NCBI RefSeq assembly: GCF_000013565.1
Contig: NC_007802.1
Location: 3,100,001-3,164,000 of the forward strand
Origin: Jannaschia sp. CCS1
GTDB taxonomy: Bacteria > Pseudomonadota > Alphaproteobacteria > Rhodobacterales > Rhodobacteraceae
Direction of reading: 5' to 3'
Length of the DNA: 64,000 bases
Shown here in pieces: positions 52,393 through 64,000 of this stretch. Each line of letters starts with the position of its first letter. The first letter of the stretch is position 1. Below the pieces are notes generated by a model. The model did not search any database and had not been told where the DNA came from. It saw only the letters and a program-made list of their open reading frames with translations. The translations under genes and the position numbers were made by a program.

Positions 52393-56110
<3,718 letters not shown>

Positions 56111-56179
56111 AGGCACCTGTTCCTCCGCCCCGAAACATGGCAAGGCATCCGGGACACTTTTGATCCGCGGAATACCAAA

Positions 56180-58561
56180 ATGAACGCCATGTCAGACCTT
56201 TCCTCCGACGGGATGCGCGCGCGGATTACGCAGCACCTGACCTATACGCTCGGCAAGGATAAGGCGCATGCCAGCCTCTACGATTGGCGCATGGCGGTCA
56301 GTCACACCGTGCGCGACCTGATTGTAGAGCCATGGTTCGCCGCCACCCGCCGCACCTATGAGGCGCAGGGAAAGCGGGTCTATTACCTGTCGATGGAATT
56401 TCTGATCGGCCGCATTCTGGAAGATGCGATGATCAACCTTGGTCTGCACGAGAAGATCGAGGAGGTGCTGGCCGAGGATGGTGTGTCCCTGGCGGATGTT
56501 GTGGAGGATGAGCCGGACGCTGCCTTGGGCAACGGCGGCCTTGGGCGTTTGGCGGCGTGCTTCATGGAGTCGTTGTCCACCATCGGCTGCCCGGCCTTTG
56601 GCTATGGCATCCGTTATGAGCACGGCCTGTTCCGGCAACGGTTTGAGGGCGGACGTCAGGTCGAAACGCCCGAGGATTGGCTGAACCAACCCCACCCGTG
56701 GGAGTTTGAGCGCCCCGAGGCCGCCTATACGATCCCCTTCAAGGGCCACGTTCACGACGGCATCTGGACGCCAGCGGAGACAGTACTGGCCCGCGCCTAC
56801 GACACGCCCGTGGTCGGCTGGCAGGGCAAATGGGCCAACACGCTGCGGCTTTGGGGCGCGCATCCCACGGAGCTGTTTGACCTCGACCGGTTCAATTCCG
56901 GCGACCACACCGCCGCCGCCCATCCCGAGGCCTTGGCCCGCACATTGTCCCGCGTCCTCTACCCAGAGGATACCACGGATGGCGGCAAGGAACTGCGCCT
57001 GAAGCAGGAGTTCTTCCTCGTCTCCGCCGCTCTGCAAGACCTGCTGCGGCGCTTCACATCCGAGTATGATGACTTGCAATTGCTGCCTGAAAGGGTCGCG
57101 ATCCAGATGAACGACACCCATCCCGCACTTGCGGGTCCCGAGATGATCCGCTTGCTGACGGTGGATCATGGGCTGGATTGGGACGCCGCCAAACGCATCG
57201 CCCAGGGCTGCCTGAACTACACGAACCACACGCTTCTGCCCGAGGCGCTGGAGCGGTGGTCGACCTGGCTGATGGGTCGCATTCTGCCCCATCACATGCA
57301 GATTATCGAGCGCATTGACGCAGAACACCGCGCGGCCACCGACTGCCCGCCGCACCTCTCCATCGTTTGGCAGGATCAGGTGCATATGGGGACGCTGGCC
57401 TTCGTCATGGCGTCCCACGTCAACGGTGTTTCGGCCTTGCACACGGATCTTATGGGCAAAACGGTCTTCGCCGAGTTAGACGGCGCCTATCCCGGGCGCA
57501 TCCTCAACCAGACCAACGGCGTCACGCCGCGCCGCTGGATGCGGCTGGCCAATCCGGGCCTGAGCTGTCTGATCACCGACCTGATCGGCGACGGGTGGGA
57601 GGATGACCTTGACCGCCTCTCTGACCTGACTGCCTTTGAAGACGACGCCGATGTCATCGCGCGCCTCGCGGCCTGCAAACGCGCCAACAAGGTGGCCCTG
57701 GCCGACTGGGTCAGCGCGCGATTGGGCGTGACCCTCAACCCCGACGCGATGTTCGACGTGCAGATCAAGCGCATCCATGAATACAAACGCCAGCTTTTGA
57801 ACGTGTTTGAAACCATCGCCCGCTGGCACGCCGTCCGGCAGGATCCCGATGCCGAGTGGACGCCGCGCGTGAAGATCTTCGGCGGCAAGGCCGCGCCCGG
57901 CTATTGGGTGGCCAAGGACATCATTCGCCTGATCAATGACGTGGCAGCGGTGGTGAACAACGATCCGGTCGTAGGGGACCGCCTGAAGGTGATCTACCCG
58001 GCCAATTACAACGTCTCCATGGCCGAGCGGTTGATCCCCGCCGCTGATCTGTCGGAGCAGATCTCCACCGCTGGCAAAGAAGCGTCGGGCACCGGCAACA
58101 TGAAATTCACGATGAACGGCGCGCTGACCATCGGCACGCTGGATGGGGCCAACGTGGAGATCCGGGAGCGTGTGGGACCCGAGAACTTCTTCCTCTTCGG
58201 CATGGACGCCGAGGCCGTGCAGGCGCGGTATGCCGTGCCCGACCATGGGCGCGAGGCGATCCTGGCCAGCCCCGAACTGGCCGACGTCCTGCAATTGATT
58301 TCTGAGGGGCGATTTTCGCCGGAAGACCCGAACCGCTACCACGGCCTTGTTGATGCCACCTGGAACCACGACCCCTTCCTCGTGGCCTCAGACTTCGACG
58401 CCTATGTTGCGGCCCAGGCGCGCGTCGATGCAGCCTACAAGGACGAGGACCACTGGCATCGCGTTGCCCTGCGCAACATCGCGGGTTCGGGGCATTTTTC
58501 GTCCGACCGCACGATCCGAGGATATATGAAAGACGTCTGGGGCGCGAAAAGTCTGCTCTAG
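56180..58561 (+). CDS. glgP: glycogen/maltodextrin phosphorylase
   Basis: A 793-residue GT35 enzyme that releases glucose-1-phosphate from alpha-1,4 chain ends. Signatures are YYLSMEFLIGRILEDAMIN, DAALGNGGLGRLAACFM, LNQTNGVTPRRWMRLANPGL, KRIHEYKRQLLN and the PLP-binding EASGTGNMKFTMNGALTIGT with the Schiff-base lysine. Two ATG codons near the start (MNAMSD) are possible; no strong ribosome binding site is visible. It follows pgm after 69 bases. Having synthesis and degradation genes on one strand in one cluster is common in alphaproteobacteria. Confidence 0.97.
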   Translation: MNAMSDLSSDGMRARITQHLTYTLGKDKAHASLYDWRMAVSHTVRDLIVEPWFAATRRTYEAQGKRVYYLSMEFLIGRILEDAMINLGLHEKIEEVLAEDGVSLADVVEDEPDAALGNGGLGRLAACFMESLSTIGCPAFGYGIRYEHGLFRQRFEGGRQVETPEDWLNQPHPWEFERPEAAYTIPFKGHVHDGIWTPAETVLARAYDTPVVGWQGKWANTLRLWGAHPTELFDLDRFNSGDHTAAAHPEALARTLSRVLYPEDTTDGGKELRLKQEFFLVSAALQDLLRRFTSEYDDLQLLPERVAIQMNDTHPALAGPEMIRLLTVDHGLDWDAAKRIAQGCLNYTNHTLLPEALERWSTWLMGRILPHHMQIIERIDAEHRAATDCPPHLSIVWQDQVHMGTLAFVMASHVNGVSALHTDLMGKTVFAELDGAYPGRILNQTNGVTPRRWMRLANPGLSCLITDLIGDGWEDDLDRLSDLTAFEDDADVIARLAACKRANKVALADWVSARLGVTLNPDAMFDVQIKRIHEYKRQLLNVFETIARWHAVRQDPDAEWTPRVKIFGGKAAPGYWVAKDIIRLINDVAAVVNNDPVVGDRLKVIYPANYNVSMAERLIPAADLSEQISTAGKEASGTGNMKFTMNGALTIGTLDGANVEIRERVGPENFFLFGMDAEAVQARYAVPDHGREAILASPELADVLQLISEGRFSPEDPNRYHGLVDATWNHDPFLVASDFDAYVAAQARVDAAYKDEDHWHRVALRNIAGSGHFSSDRTIRGYMKDVWGAKSLL

Positions 58562-60226: not shown

Positions 60227-62197
60227 CTAGACCAAGTCTGCATCCGTCATCACCTCCACCAGCGCCGGACCCTTCACGGCAAGGGCCTCGACGAGCGCGG
60301 CTTCCACCTCTGAACCGCGCGTCACCTTCGCGCCGTGCGCGCCACACAAACGGGCAAACGCGGCAAAGGATGGGTTGACCAAGCTCGTCTCCCACACCTC
60401 CCATTCACCGGCCCGCTGCTCTTTGGAGATCTTCCCAAGCTCGTCGTTGTGCAGAAGCACATGGGTGATATCCATCCCGTATTTCACCGCCGTCGTCAGC
60501 TCCATCGCGTATTGCCCGAAGCCCCCGTCGCCGGAGATTGAGATCACCTTCCGCCCTTTCAGATCGGCGATATCCTGGGTCGCAGCCCAAGCCCCAAGAG
60601 CTGCCGGAAGGGAGAACCCGATGGATCCCAGATAACCCGACATCAGCACCCGCTGGCCTTTGGTCTCGAAGTAGCGGCCAAAGGAGTAGGTGTTGTTACC
60701 CACGTCGACAGCAATGATCGCATCCGCCGGTGCCACACGAGACAGGGCCTCGAAAATCGCAGCCGAATGAACGCCGCGCGCCCCCTCCTCCGCCAACCGG
60801 CTGGCCTTCTCCGCGCGCCAGATCTCCCACCGCTCGGCCAACTCGCTCACCTGATCGACGGCATCTGTGGCCTTGTTTAGACGCGGACCGATGGCATCGC
60901 AAAACGCGCCGATCTCTCCCCAGACCGGCAGGGCCACCGGATGGAACTTGCCCAATTGCATCCGCTCAAAATCGACCTGAATAATCGGTTTGCTCGGCTC
61001 GATACCCGTATGGTTCGAAAATGAGGTTCCGAGCGACAGGATCAAATCCGCCTCATTCATGAACCAACTGGCAATCGGCGTACCTGACCGACCCAGAACG
61101 CCCGCCGCAAGCGGATGGCTGTCAGGGATCAGGCCCTTGCCCTTGAACGTCGTCACCACAGGCGCGCCAAGCGTTTCGGCCAGCGCAATAATCTGATCGC
61201 GGGCCTCCCACGCGCCGTGACCGATGACAATCATCGGGCGTCTGGCGGCGTTCAACATATCCAGCGCAGCATCGACGTCCGCATCGGCGGGCTTGACTAC
61301 CGTCCCGCCCATCCGCCCCTCCGGTGTGGCCGCCGGGGCGTCACTTGGGAGCGTCTGGACATCATCGGGGAAGATGAGATGCGACACGTCCCGCTCCACC
61401 AGCGCGTTTTTCACCGCCAGGGACACCAGTTCCGTGTGTTTGGACGTGCTGAGGACGGGTTGCGAAAACCGGCTCACGGCCTGGAAAGCAGACGCCAAAT
61501 CAATGTCTTGAAAGGCGCCGGGCCCAAAGACCTGAGTCTGGACCTGACCTGTCAAGGCCAGGACCGGTGCGCGGTCGACCTTGGCGTCCCACATACCCGT
61601 CAACAGATTCGTCGCACCGGGCCCCGCAATCGTTAGACAGGCGGCGGGCCGCCCTGTCAGCTTGCCGTAGGCCGATGCTGCGAAGGCCGCCGCCCCCTCG
61701 TGCCTGATCCCATAGTATCGCATCTCTCCGTCGGCCACGCGCCGCCGGATCGCGTCCGAGAGGCCCAAATTCGAGTGCCCAACCATCCCGAACACGCTTT
61801 GAATGCCCCAATTAACCATCGTTTCAGCCATGGCATCGGTGACGGTCCGTATGTGCTCGGGCTGCTTCTGGAGGCCCACGAAAACCTCTCCGTCCCGCAC
61901 GTCGACCGCATAGGTCTTCTGTCCCGTATCCTCGTGTCCACCCGGAGGCGCGCCGGTCAGCGGATCAAAATCCCACCCGTGCCATGGGCAGCGGATCCAG
62001 CATTGCCCCTCCACACCGCGCTCGATCGAGCCCTCTCCCAACGGCCCGCCCTGATGCGGGCAACGGTTGTCCATCGCGGCCCATTGACCATCAAAGTGGC
62101 TTAGACAGATCGACGTTGTCCCTGCGGTTACCGTTTTCACGCGCCCCTCGGGCAGGTCGGCCGCATCGGCGACCTTGATCCAGTCCAGATCGCTCAT
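60227..62197 (-). CDS. Rieske [2Fe-2S] domain fused to a ThDP-dependent enzyme
   Basis: A 656-residue fusion. Residues 1-108 are a Rieske ferredoxin domain with ligands C46, H48, C70 and H73 (DNRCPHQGG and WIRCPWHGWDF). From about 112 to the end runs a complete pyruvate-oxidase/acetolactate-synthase-type enzyme. It has the catalytic glutamate E167 in GIRHEGAAAFAASAYGK, the central nucleotide-type domain, and the ThDP/Mg motif GDGGFGQYAMEL followed by LHNDELGKI. The Rieske part could pass electrons to or from the 2-carbon product during oxidative decarboxylation. Family fusions of this type are not ones I know as characterised enzymes. ATG 62197 has GGAGG upstream and overlaps the gene before it (ATGA). 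Confidence 0.9.
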   Translation of the reverse strand: MSDLDWIKVADAADLPEGRVKTVTAGTTSICLSHFDGQWAAMDNRCPHQGGPLGEGSIERGVEGQCWIRCPWHGWDFDPLTGAPPGGHEDTGQKTYAVDVRDGEVFVGLQKQPEHIRTVTDAMAETMVNWGIQSVFGMVGHSNLGLSDAIRRRVADGEMRYYGIRHEGAAAFAASAYGKLTGRPAACLTIAGPGATNLLTGMWDAKVDRAPVLALTGQVQTQVFGPGAFQDIDLASAFQAVSRFSQPVLSTSKHTELVSLAVKNALVERDVSHLIFPDDVQTLPSDAPAATPEGRMGGTVVKPADADVDAALDMLNAARRPMIVIGHGAWEARDQIIALAETLGAPVVTTFKGKGLIPDSHPLAAGVLGRSGTPIASWFMNEADLILSLGTSFSNHTGIEPSKPIIQVDFERMQLGKFHPVALPVWGEIGAFCDAIGPRLNKATDAVDQVSELAERWEIWRAEKASRLAEEGARGVHSAAIFEALSRVAPADAIIAVDVGNNTYSFGRYFETKGQRVLMSGYLGSIGFSLPAALGAWAATQDIADLKGRKVISISGDGGFGQYAMELTTAVKYGMDITHVLLHNDELGKISKEQRAGEWEVWETSLVNPSFAAFARLCGAHGAKVTRGSEVEAALVEALAVKGPALVEVMTDADLV

Positions 62198-63801
62198 GAG
62201 ACACCTCCAAATGCGACGCCCGAAATCTCGGACATCTCTTTTTTCCATGTGGTCAGATCATCCGATTTGAATTTCGACAGGTGATCATGGCCGCACGCAC
62301 GCGCCATCACCTGCATCAACTCGGTCGAGGCTTCAAAGAAGTTGGCCAATTGGCGCGCTGATTTCTCAACAACCAACCGATTGACAAGATGCGGTTTTTG
62401 GCTCGCGATGCCCACGGGGCAATTGTTGGTATGGCAGGCCCGCATCGCCAAACATCCAATGGCCTGCATAGCCGAATTTGAAACCGCAATTGCATCCGCG
62501 CCCATCGCCAGCGCCTTGATGAAATCGGGGGCGGTGCGCAGGCCCCCAGTGATCACCAAGGACACATCCGGCTGGGTCTTGTCCAGATGCCGCCGCGCAC
62601 GGGCGAGCGCAGGGATCGTCGGCACGCTGATATTGTCGCGGAACAGCGTCGGTGCAGCGCCCGTGCCACCGCCGCGACCATCAAGGATGATGTAGTCCAC
62701 CCCAACCTCCAGCGCCGCGTCGATGTCCTTTTCAATATGCTGCGCAGACAGCTTGTAGCCGATGGGGATGCCGCCCGTCCGGTCCCGCACTTCATCGGCA
62801 AAGTCCTTGATCTGGGCGGGGTCGGTCCAGTCGGGGAAGCGGGGCGGAGAGATTGCCGATTGTCCTTCCTCCAGCCCCCGCACTTCGGCGATCTTGCCTG
62901 TCACCTTGTGCCCGGGAAGGTGCCCGCCCGTCCCGGTCTTGGCCCCCTGCCCGCCCTTGAAATGGAAGGCCTGAACGCGGGCGAGTTTCTCCCACGAGAA
63001 GCCGAACCGACCCGAGGCCAGCTCATAGAAGTAGCGAGAATTTGCAGCCTGCTCCTCTGGCAACATGCCGCCCTCGCCCGAACAAATACCGGTTCCGGCC
63101 ATTTCTGCCCCCTGCGCGAGAGCCACCTTCGCAGGCTCCGACAACGCACCATAAGACATGTCTGAGACGAACAGGGGGATCTCCAGTCGCAACGGTTTCT
63201 GCGAGTTGGGGCCGATCACCACGTCGGTGCCCACGGTCTCATCCTCCAACATCGGGGCCTTGTGCAGCTGTGCCGTGAGGATCTGGATATCGTCCCAATC
63301 CGGCAGTTTCGCGCGGCTGACACCCATCGCGTCGACCTGCCCGTGATGGCCGGTGTGTTTCAACCCGCCTTTGGCGTAGGTTTGGATCGTACCGACATAG
63401 GGCTCTTCCTCCGTCCCATGGGAGGTGTCCGCATAAAGGCCCAGATATGCGTCCCGATTGAACGGCTGGGGGTTCGCGTGGCCCCAGGCGGCGATTTCGT
63501 CCTCGTCCACCAGAACGTCATCGCCCACAATTATGCAGTCAAATTTGGGCAGCACCTCCTCATTGGCGTATTCAGACACGCCTGACTCCAAACGATAATC
63601 CCAGTCATGAACCCCGCAGATCAGGTTCTTTCCCCGAACATGCCCGTCCGACATCAACGCGCCGCGGTGCAGGCAACGGCCGTAGAACACGCTCACCTCG
63701 TCATCCCAGCGCACCACCACGAGATCGACATCGGCCACGAGCGCGTATGCCGGCTCCCGGTCATTCAGGGTGTTGAGGTCAGCAACTTTGATCTGCGGCA
63801 T
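62194..63801 (-). CDS. Rieske domain fused to a glutamate-synthase-type FMN/[3Fe-4S] domain
   Basis: A 535-residue fusion. The N-terminal Rieske domain has C43, H45, C62 and H65 (YGRCLHRGALMS and LICGVHDWDY). From about residue 110 comes the GltB-like FMN barrel: MSYGALSEPAKVALAQGAEM, GEGGMLPEEQA, YKLSAQHIEKDIDAALEVG and ILDGRGGGTGAAP. A CX5CX4C cluster ligand set (C450, C456, C461 in CLAMRACHTNNCPVG) fits the [3Fe-4S] site of glutamate synthases. It lacks the amidotransferase domain, so it is not a full glutamate synthase. ATG 63801 starts the Rieske domain. It is translationally coupled to the Rieske-ThDP gene. Confidence 0.9.
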   Translation of the reverse strand: MPQIKVADLNTLNDREPAYALVADVDLVVVRWDDEVSVFYGRCLHRGALMSDGHVRGKNLICGVHDWDYRLESGVSEYANEEVLPKFDCIIVGDDVLVDEDEIAAWGHANPQPFNRDAYLGLYADTSHGTEEEPYVGTIQTYAKGGLKHTGHHGQVDAMGVSRAKLPDWDDIQILTAQLHKAPMLEDETVGTDVVIGPNSQKPLRLEIPLFVSDMSYGALSEPAKVALAQGAEMAGTGICSGEGGMLPEEQAANSRYFYELASGRFGFSWEKLARVQAFHFKGGQGAKTGTGGHLPGHKVTGKIAEVRGLEEGQSAISPPRFPDWTDPAQIKDFADEVRDRTGGIPIGYKLSAQHIEKDIDAALEVGVDYIILDGRGGGTGAAPTLFRDNISVPTIPALARARRHLDKTQPDVSLVITGGLRTAPDFIKALAMGADAIAVSNSAMQAIGCLAMRACHTNNCPVGIASQKPHLVNRLVVEKSARQLANFFEASTELMQVMARACGHDHLSKFKSDDLTTWKKEMSEISGVAFGGVS

Positions 63802-63818: not shown

Positions 63819-64000
63819 TTAATGGTCGTCCGGGTTCAATCGGCGGTCGATCCAGCCCGCGATGGCTTGTGCCACCGAAAACAGAAGGATCGCAGCGGAT
63901 AGGAGGATCACGTAGCGGTACTCGAAAAACGGCGTACCGCGCAGGGTGTTCAGTTCGATCCACCCCCAGTAGGACAAAGCCGCGGCACTCGCCGCCAACG
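63819..64000 (-). CDS. membrane protein, C-terminal part (runs off the window)
   Basis: The minus-strand frame ending at TAA 63819-63821 is open to the window edge and encodes about 60 residues. It has one clear helix (YVILLSAAILLFSVAQAIAG) preceded by WGWIELNTLRGTPFFEYR and followed by a short charged tail WIDRRLNPDDH. This shape resembles the end of a TRAP small subunit or another small membrane protein, but the fragment is too short to decide. The stop lies 17 bases before the Rieske-FMN gene, so it is likely in the same operon. Confidence 0.55.
   Translation of the reverse strand, partial: LAASAAALSYWGWIELNTLRGTPFFEYRYVILLSAAILLFSVAQAIAGWIDRRLNPDDH

Follow-up and report, generated by a model that had tools for sequence, protein, structure and literature searches.

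The window, that is, the whole stretch of DNA analysed here, is 64 kb long and corresponds to positions 3100001-3164000 of the second of the two contigs that make up the 4.40 Mb genome of Jannaschia sp. CCS1. All coordinates refer to this stretch, and genes situated beyond position 64000 are given in window-equivalent coordinates. Near the end of the window, two genes on the minus strand overlap in an ATGA sequence. The upstream gene encodes P0002 (62194..63801, 535 amino acids (aa)), a Rieske domain fused to a flavoenzyme of the glutamate synthase (GltS) type. The downstream gene encodes P0001 (60227..62197, 656 aa), a Rieske domain fused to a thiamine diphosphate (ThDP) enzyme. An initial annotation, made from the sequence, had recognized this pair and the N-terminal position of both Rieske domains, and the open reading frames and Pfam matches confirm it. 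The Rieske ligands named at that time, C43/H45/C62/H65 in P0002 and C46/H48/C70/H73 in P0001, are numbered exactly and are conserved in the homologues. The operon to which the two genes belong and the co-occurrence of its products across genomes point to an undescribed electron pathway from enzymes to the membrane.

The GltS loci used for comparison came from one scan of a genome contig collection and are the best 80 of 226 P0002 relatives, with identities of 79-88%; nearly all are alphaproteobacterial according to their titles. Residue conservation was counted in 81 ThDP rows (77 distinct), picked by an alignment score above 400 bits alone, in 119 GltS rows (110 distinct), 106 of them (98 distinct) of the Rieske type, and in 59 rows (57 distinct) of the membrane protein FRR described below. 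These rows include some genomes present twice, from two collections. The short duplicates L100-L113 were excluded, and the FRR of L082, which has an in-frame stop, was removed.

The Rieske domain of P0002 (residues ~5-99; 63505..63789, minus strand) matches PF00355 over residues 5-75 with an E value of 3.3e-11. Its ligands are invariant in all 106 Rieske-type rows, a count that is partly circular because the type was assigned by the same CxH...CxxH motif. The Glu_synthase domain (PF01645, E 3.7e-91), which binds flavin mononucleotide (FMN), occupies residues 195-504 (62290..63219, minus strand) and aligns with GltB and with ferredoxin-dependent glutamate synthase (Fd-GltS). The CX5CX4C cluster motif, formed by C450, C456 and C461 (62419..62454, minus strand), is aligned with the GltB cysteines and is invariant in 119 of 119 rows, in agreement with the FMN/[3Fe-4S] assignment made initially. 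A Pfam search over all 535 aa gave Rieske, Glu_synthase and weak overlapping FMN_dh and IMPDH matches, and no glutaminase domain. The NCBIfam cut-off was not reached for any of the nine families matched.

Glu243, Lys282, Gln285, Lys288 and Arg308 of P0002 are invariant in all 119 GltS rows. They align with E903, K966, Q969, K972 and R992 of Synechocystis Fd-GltS, residues with a role at the 2-oxoglutarate site. The position of Q978 is His in 118 of the 119 rows and that of E975 is Thr in 117, so that five of the seven substrate-site positions compared are conserved. Because of these two replacements, the recognition of 2-oxoglutarate may be lost in P0002. Amino- or imino-acid or related chemistry would be expected for this enzyme, with no particular substrate named. 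A second locus in the same genome contains an open frame of 1553 aa that matches P0002 at 34% identity and fits an ordinary GltB.

The Rieske domain of P0001 (residues ~5-107; 61877..62185, minus strand) is matched by PF00355 over residues 5-83 and by PF13806 over residues 5-107, with a Rieske E value of 9.9e-18. Its ligands are invariant in 81 of 81 ThDP rows, and no Rieske-free copy is found among these rows. The remainder of the protein, residues 118-656 (60230..61846, minus strand), contains TPP_enzyme_N, M and C and is thus the full ThDP enzyme that had been predicted. The catalytic Glu167 is present in all 81 rows, as are D557 and G558; G556 and N584 are present in 77.

The best match to this core is E. 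coli PoxB (3EYA), both in sequence (phmmer, E 3.2e-65) and in fold (Foldseek, E 1.6e-41, template-modelling score 0.90 by target length). The Corynebacterium glutamicum enzyme PQO (9EV6) ranks next. The same match lists place acetolactate synthases and 2-hydroxyacyl-CoA lyases close behind, and the reaction of P0001 is therefore not fixed by the fold alone. Among the best 25 of 58 NCBIfam families, none was matched at its cut-off (369 of 742 bits for PRK08611 and 312 of 792 bits for PRK09124). Residues 118-651 of the 656 residues of P0001 align with residues 4-527 of PoxB with few gaps. As the alignment ends at residue 527 of the 572 in PoxB, P0001 has no counterpart of the last ~45 residues, which we take to be the membrane-binding tail of PoxB. 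Lys589, situated in the ThDP site, is invariant in the P0001 homologues; its position is presumably occupied in pyruvate oxidase by a Phe involved in electron transfer from ThDP to flavin adenine dinucleotide (FAD). Chemistry on a 2-oxo acid would be expected for P0001, again with no substrate named.

The upstream part of the operon was read from the next 16 kb beyond the window edge (L012). In the source genome six genes form a tight operon, transcribed in the order TM127-FRR-TM253-68 aa-GltS-ThDP. All junctions are ATGA overlaps except the one from the 68-aa gene to P0002, where 17 bases intervene. The gene for the 68-aa hydrophobic protein has its 3' part in the window (63819..64000, minus strand; the whole gene, 64025-63819, is an open frame read from L012) and is TM94-like by position only. 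TM253 (64022-64795), FRR (64792-65841) and TM127 (65838-about 66197) lie beyond the window, all on the minus strand. FRR is a fusion of a Ferric_reduct membrane domain (PF01794) with a C-terminal Rieske domain (PF00355). The membrane partner that the initial annotation supposed to be cut off at the window edge has thus been found, and it carries a third Rieske domain. Three of the 12 Rieske domain matches in the source genome fall in this operon.

The paired membrane histidines of FRR (H89/H101 and H171/H184) and its Rieske ligands (C271/H273/C290/H293) are conserved in at least 98% of the 59 rows, and FRR, P0001 and P0002 all have the CxH...CxxH pattern within PF00355, with conserved ligands. 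Each histidine pair is spaced by 12-13 residues, which we take to be the rule in dihaem ferric reductases. The hydrophobic segments number five in a simple scan and six when counted by eye, and the hydropathy and charges would place the Rieske domain in the cytosol. The membrane half scores 38.2 bits against the NCBIfam MsrQ model, below the cut-off of 130. No MsrP-like gene adjoining FRR was recognized by eye in the source operon, and no genome-wide search was made.

TM253 has no Pfam or NCBIfam match. Its residues C168, H181, C184 and C188 are conserved in 40 of 40 sequences. The structure model is confident (predicted local distance difference test score 90.2) and consists of one N-terminal helix followed by a beta-rich part; it matches no PDB fold at E <= 0.001, and the protein itself has no meaningful profile match. 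In Ruegeria arenilitoris (L058:9659-10250), GltS is followed by short remnants of TM127, TM253 and TM94 and no FRR is detected, which looks like a deletion of the membrane module.

The same genes recur around GltS elsewhere. Within the fetched DNA of the 80 GltS loci, some of which lie on short contigs, ThDP was found in 55, TM127 in 37, FRR, TM253 and a cation:proton antiporter in 36 each, and TM94 in 22. Loci such as L035, L049, L050, L065, L068, L081, L088 and L164 have the complete set antiporter-GltS-TM127-FRR-TM253-TM94-ThDP.

Co-occurrence was counted in 289 genomes of the class, 150 of the window's family and 199 of the phylum. A Rieske-GltS was scored when the match began within the first 11 query residues. 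Three incomplete copies were left out of the full-length counts: that of G038, at a contig edge, is matched from residue 95, and those of G555 and G600, each with a stop, from residues 110 and 292, respectively. The class sample contains Rieske-GltS in 8 genomes, Rieske-ThDP in 14 and FRR in 15. GltS and FRR occur together in 8 of these (0.42 expected), GltS and ThDP in 7 (0.39 expected), ThDP and FRR in 7, and all three in 7. The family sample has GltS in 15 genomes, ThDP in 10, all of them within the GltS genomes, and FRR in 14; GltS and FRR overlap in 10, ThDP and FRR in 9, and all three in 9. In the phylum sample, the 5 ThDP genomes are all among the 9 with Rieske-GltS. The class and family overlaps expected by chance are 0.4-1.4, and the hypergeometric p values range from 6e-7 to 3e-12, or from 6e-6 to 3e-11 without the window's own genome. 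Counting by family code, with 131 families taken as a floor for the number sampled, GltS is accompanied by FRR in 5 of 5 (p 8e-7) and by ThDP in 4 of 5 (p 9e-5).

The proteins also occur together when their genes lie apart. In G105 each of GltS, ThDP and FRR has a large contig to itself and lies well away from the contig ends; in G191 they are likewise on different contigs, which is less telling in a fragmented assembly. GltS lies ~44 kb from ThDP in G008, and FRR is separated from the GltS-ThDP pair in G289 and G398. Linkage alone therefore does not explain the pattern. GltS proteins without a Rieske part do not follow Rieske-ThDP: of the genomes with such a GltS, none of 4 in the class, where the carrier was confirmed as CDGSH in every case, and 2 of 13 in the family (0.87 expected, carrier type unchecked) also have it. 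The pairing assumed in the initial annotation is thus found far above chance in the class and family samples, and this extends to all three Rieske proteins, linked or unlinked, without being obligate.

The initial annotation had proposed that the two proteins form one redox system with a membrane partner. This is supported by the operon, the linked and unlinked co-occurrence and the third Rieske fusion. A direct coupling of ThDP to GltS is not established, and each is often found in genomes that lack the other. The two genes are better regarded as members of a modular set, in which FRR is the frequent partner of GltS (8 of 8 genomes in the class, 10 of 15 in the family).

The iron-sulfur carrier at the N-terminus is exchangeable. 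By carrier, the 119 GltS rows comprise 106 Rieske, 11 CDGSH (10 distinct), one rubredoxin-like and one cut at a contig edge. The GltS of Vibrio fortis begins with two CDGSH motifs; by motif pattern, two are present in 10 of the CDGSH-type proteins and one in L132. On a Monoglobus plasmid (L099:5704-7131), GltS has an N-terminal rubredoxin-like domain with two CxxC motifs, and its core is 45% identical to P0002. Five ThDP homologues have additional carriers before the Rieske domain. According to the motif patterns, L114 is arranged as CDGSH-CDGSH-Rieske-ThDP, and L116-L119 as CDGSH-Fer4_19-CDGSH-Rieske-ThDP, so that four iron-sulfur domains precede the ThDP enzyme; Pfam confirms this in L116 (8093-10672).

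A tree of the GltS core, built from 61 of the 119 rows (56 of them different), unites the Rieske form in a single clade with a Shimodaira-Hasegawa-like approximate likelihood ratio test value of 89. Repeated swapping of Rieske and CDGSH on GltS had been suspected, since genus g388 has both forms. The tree does not support this, as it needs a single change, and the pattern is more simply explained by horizontal spread or gene loss. A tree of 67 Rieske domains (65 different) separates those of ThDP, GltS and FRR into three groups, with low resolution for so short a domain and with long branches flagged, and it does not support a recent duplication within the system. Three haloarchaea have plasmids that encode homologues of both P0001 and P0002, with identities of 58-61%, and ThDP alone was seen in the fetched stretches of Haloferax larsenii and of a Mycobacteroides abscessus plasmid. 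Horizontal transfer is the simplest reading of this spread to haloarchaeal and mycobacterial plasmids. On the Halorubrum plasmid pHAR01 (L094:8121-18464), the record annotates DsrE, TusA, rhodanese, YeeE/YedE, MoeB and a desampylase near Rieske-GltS.

From the domains, ligands, operon, co-occurrence and exchangeable carriers observed, we infer a modular electron-transfer system in which P0001 and P0002 exchange electrons with the membrane protein FRR through their Rieske domains, and to which we give an even chance. The PoxB/PQO-like P0001 and the GltS-type P0002, with its FMN and [3Fe-4S] cluster, would be two cytosolic enzymes, each bearing a Rieske [2Fe-2S] plug that exchanges single electrons with FRR. 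FRR would combine a ferric-reductase/MsrQ-like haem core with a cytosol-facing Rieske domain and pass electrons across or into the membrane. The acceptor, reached by way of two putative haems, might be quinone or TM253 as a periplasmic 3Cys-1His protein. In P0001 the plug may replace the role of the C-terminal membrane tail of PoxB. Most likely, electrons would be taken from the substrates, a 2-oxo acid in the case of ThDP and an amino or imino acid in that of FMN, enter the Rieske domains and move through FRR to the membrane acceptor.

Several observations weigh against such a system. The hypergeometric p values ignore shared ancestry and are hence inflated by relatedness, and by family code ThDP is accompanied by FRR in only 4 of 10 (p 0.003). 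ThDP is missing from 5 of the 15 family genomes with GltS and from 4 of the 9 such phylum genomes. Seven of the 14 class genomes with ThDP contain neither a full-length Rieske-GltS nor FRR, one of the seven being G038, whose GltS copy is cut at a contig edge. Of the genomes with FRR, 7 of 15 in the class and 4 of 14 in the family have neither Rieske-GltS nor ThDP, and no FRR was found in the fetched haloarchaeal stretches L093-L096, the only parts of those genomes searched. The three separate groups in the Rieske tree mean that no recent duplication links these domains. FAD-mediated chemistry in P0001 is uncertain, since the Phe of pyruvate oxidase is replaced by the invariant Lys589.

A wider form of this system can be proposed more tentatively. 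Small carriers, among them the [2Fe-2S] domains with histidine ligands, Rieske and CDGSH, would be exchangeable plugs by which enzymes as unrelated as the ThDP and GltS types connect to one common socket, a dihaem FRR with its own Rieske domain. Electrons would enter or leave respiration by a route that needs no NADH, ferredoxin or flavodoxin. Horizontal transfer would have carried the enzymes between alphaproteobacteria, gammaproteobacteria, an actinobacterial plasmid and haloarchaea. Rieske plugs that meet a Rieske-bearing membrane haem protein, in place of the membrane binding of PoxB-type enzymes and the usual electron donors of GltS-type enzymes, would represent a new wiring of metabolism to the membrane, and the acquisition of the same few iron-sulfur domains by unrelated enzymes would be explained.

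The gene neighbours raise the possibility, which we consider rather unlikely, that the proteins form a device against redox or electrophile stress. It would consume or sense oxidants and adjust cytosolic pH or K+ through the linked antiporter, its enzymes scavenging small reactive carbonyls or 2-oxo acids instead of feeding respiration. The antiporter (PF00999) also matches an NCBIfam potassium/proton antiporter below its cut-off; of the 36 loci that have it, 35 carry it immediately upstream of GltS and in the same orientation. A protein of the FMN_red/flavodoxin type and an antiporter are found near Rieske-ThDP both in an alphaproteobacterium (L116:6005-10672) and on the Mycobacteroides plasmid (L097:3280-9911), the two flavodoxin-type proteins being 44% identical to each other. 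The antiporters themselves are not close relatives, however: that of Mycobacteroides is not significantly similar to its alphaproteobacterial counterpart, and that of haloarchaea only weakly so. In gammaproteobacteria and haloarchaea, single neighbours of GltS are of the redox or stress type (pirin, MsrA, Dps/ferritin, old-yellow-enzyme, nitroreductase, GST, OsmC and CDGSH), and the resemblance of the FRR membrane half to MsrQ fits the same setting. The counts are small and have no control set. The 119 neighbour proteins scanned, of 143 selected, include LysR (5), ferritin-like (4), PMSR (2), pirin (2), CDGSH (2) and antiporter (2) proteins, but M20 peptidases and methyltransferases, with 4 each, are as frequent as the stress families. 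One Vibrio locus is present twice (L098, L161), which inflates the LysR and ferritin counts. Outside the core, and the antiporter aside, no gene cluster is common to more than 15 of 81 loci. The neighbours in distant hosts hint at a redox-stress setting, which is compatible with the modular electron-transfer system, as it gives a purpose and not another mechanism.

Less probable is a catabolic role in the oxidation of glutamate or another amino acid, in which P0002 would act as an amino-acid dehydrogenase (GltS reversed), P0001 would oxidatively decarboxylate the 2-oxo acid, and four electrons would pass via Rieske to FRR. The five invariant residues aligned with Fd-GltS, with their role at the 2-oxoglutarate site, are consistent with this, and an acidic substrate could be bound by Lys589, which is invariant in the ThDP site. 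The His and Thr replacements in P0002, by which 2-oxoglutarate recognition may be lost, and the frequent separation of GltS from ThDP argue against it. The opposite direction, reductive amination, appears improbable. Electrons from the oxidation of a 2-oxo acid by the ThDP enzyme, or from the membrane via FRR, would then drive a GltS-like reduction to glutamate or of an imine. This is the known direction of the GltS family, and ThDP and GltS are linked. However, P0002 has no glutaminase domain and an altered substrate pocket, and the genome has the other locus that fits an ordinary GltB. It is very improbable that the Rieske domains serve as sensors or as structural parts gating the enzymes by redox state or O2: the absence of a Rieske-free ThDP copy among the 81 rows and the lability and redox response of CDGSH clusters would suit this, but the CDGSH and rubredoxin substitutes preserve redox activity and not one structure, and the third Rieske domain sits on a putative haem protein.

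Directly upstream of TM127, on the same strand, is a gene (L012:6321-7646) that appears to us to resemble AarF/UbiB-type kinases, a possible link to quinone. A 519-aa protein further upstream of the operon (L012:9411-10970) presumably resembles the MttB family (trimethylamine methyltransferase-like). Homarine or methylamine catabolism was rejected, as no link to it was found in the papers searched and no such genes were recognized in the operon. Anti-phage defence was also rejected, PADLOC giving no match for P0001, P0002, FRR or TM253. Elsewhere in the window, on the plus strand (52393-58561), putative glycogen-debranching, phosphoglucomutase and glycogen-phosphorylase-like genes stand in a row.

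The initial annotation knew of no characterised system of this design, and literature searches have found none. The Rieske-ThDP, Rieske-GltS and Rieske-ferric-reductase fusions are not described in the titles and abstracts of the open-access papers searched. PoxB (3EYA/3EY9) and PQO (9EV3-9EV6) are pyruvate:quinone oxidoreductases, and enzymes of the PoxB type reach quinones by membrane binding. P0001 shares with them the whole ThDP core, the catalytic Glu and the GDG...N motif. It differs in its N-terminal Rieske domain, in the missing ~45-residue end of PoxB and in having Lys589 in place of the Phe of pyruvate oxidase. Enzymes of the GltS type take electrons from NADPH flavoproteins or ferredoxin. 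P0002 has the FMN/[3Fe-4S] domain of GltB and Fd-GltS (1EA0, 1LLW) with five aligned key residues, but has no glutaminase, two substrate-site changes and its own Rieske donor or acceptor. FRR resembles MsrQ/YedZ and the ferric reductase/NOX family in its Ferric_reduct membrane domain and paired histidines. It differs from both in its fusion to a Rieske domain, predicted to be cytosolic, and it reaches 38 of the 130 bits needed for the MsrQ model.

The remaining relatives are CDGSH proteins. Type 7 CISD combines CDGSH with DUF1271/Fer4_19 (PMC3174974), and its CDGSH-Fer4_19-CDGSH block forms the N-terminus of the ThDP homologues L116-L119. There the block is fused to Rieske and ThDP, a combination unmentioned in the accessible parts of PMC3174974. 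A later survey (PMC5859297) lists, in the parts available, CDGSH with Glu_synthase, Fer4_19 and Rieske_2. The words "thiamine" and "TPP" are absent from the main texts of both papers. In type 5 CISD (Lin et al. 2011, PMC3174974), tandem CDGSH is joined to the FMN domain of glutamate synthase, and the accessible text names no function for this type. Instead of the twin CDGSH that defines this type, P0002 has a Rieske domain; the GltS forms without a Rieske part do not track Rieske-ThDP, and the Rieske form is a separate clade. If the proposed electron pathway is true, it would offer a testable role for this CDGSH-GltS family, for which no function was found. P0002 and this family both have an N-terminal [2Fe-2S] carrier, and the CDGSH-type proteins checked match P0002 over residues ~130-534 at 60-70% identity. 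The nearest known relative is the CDGSH-GltS fusion of type 5 CISD.

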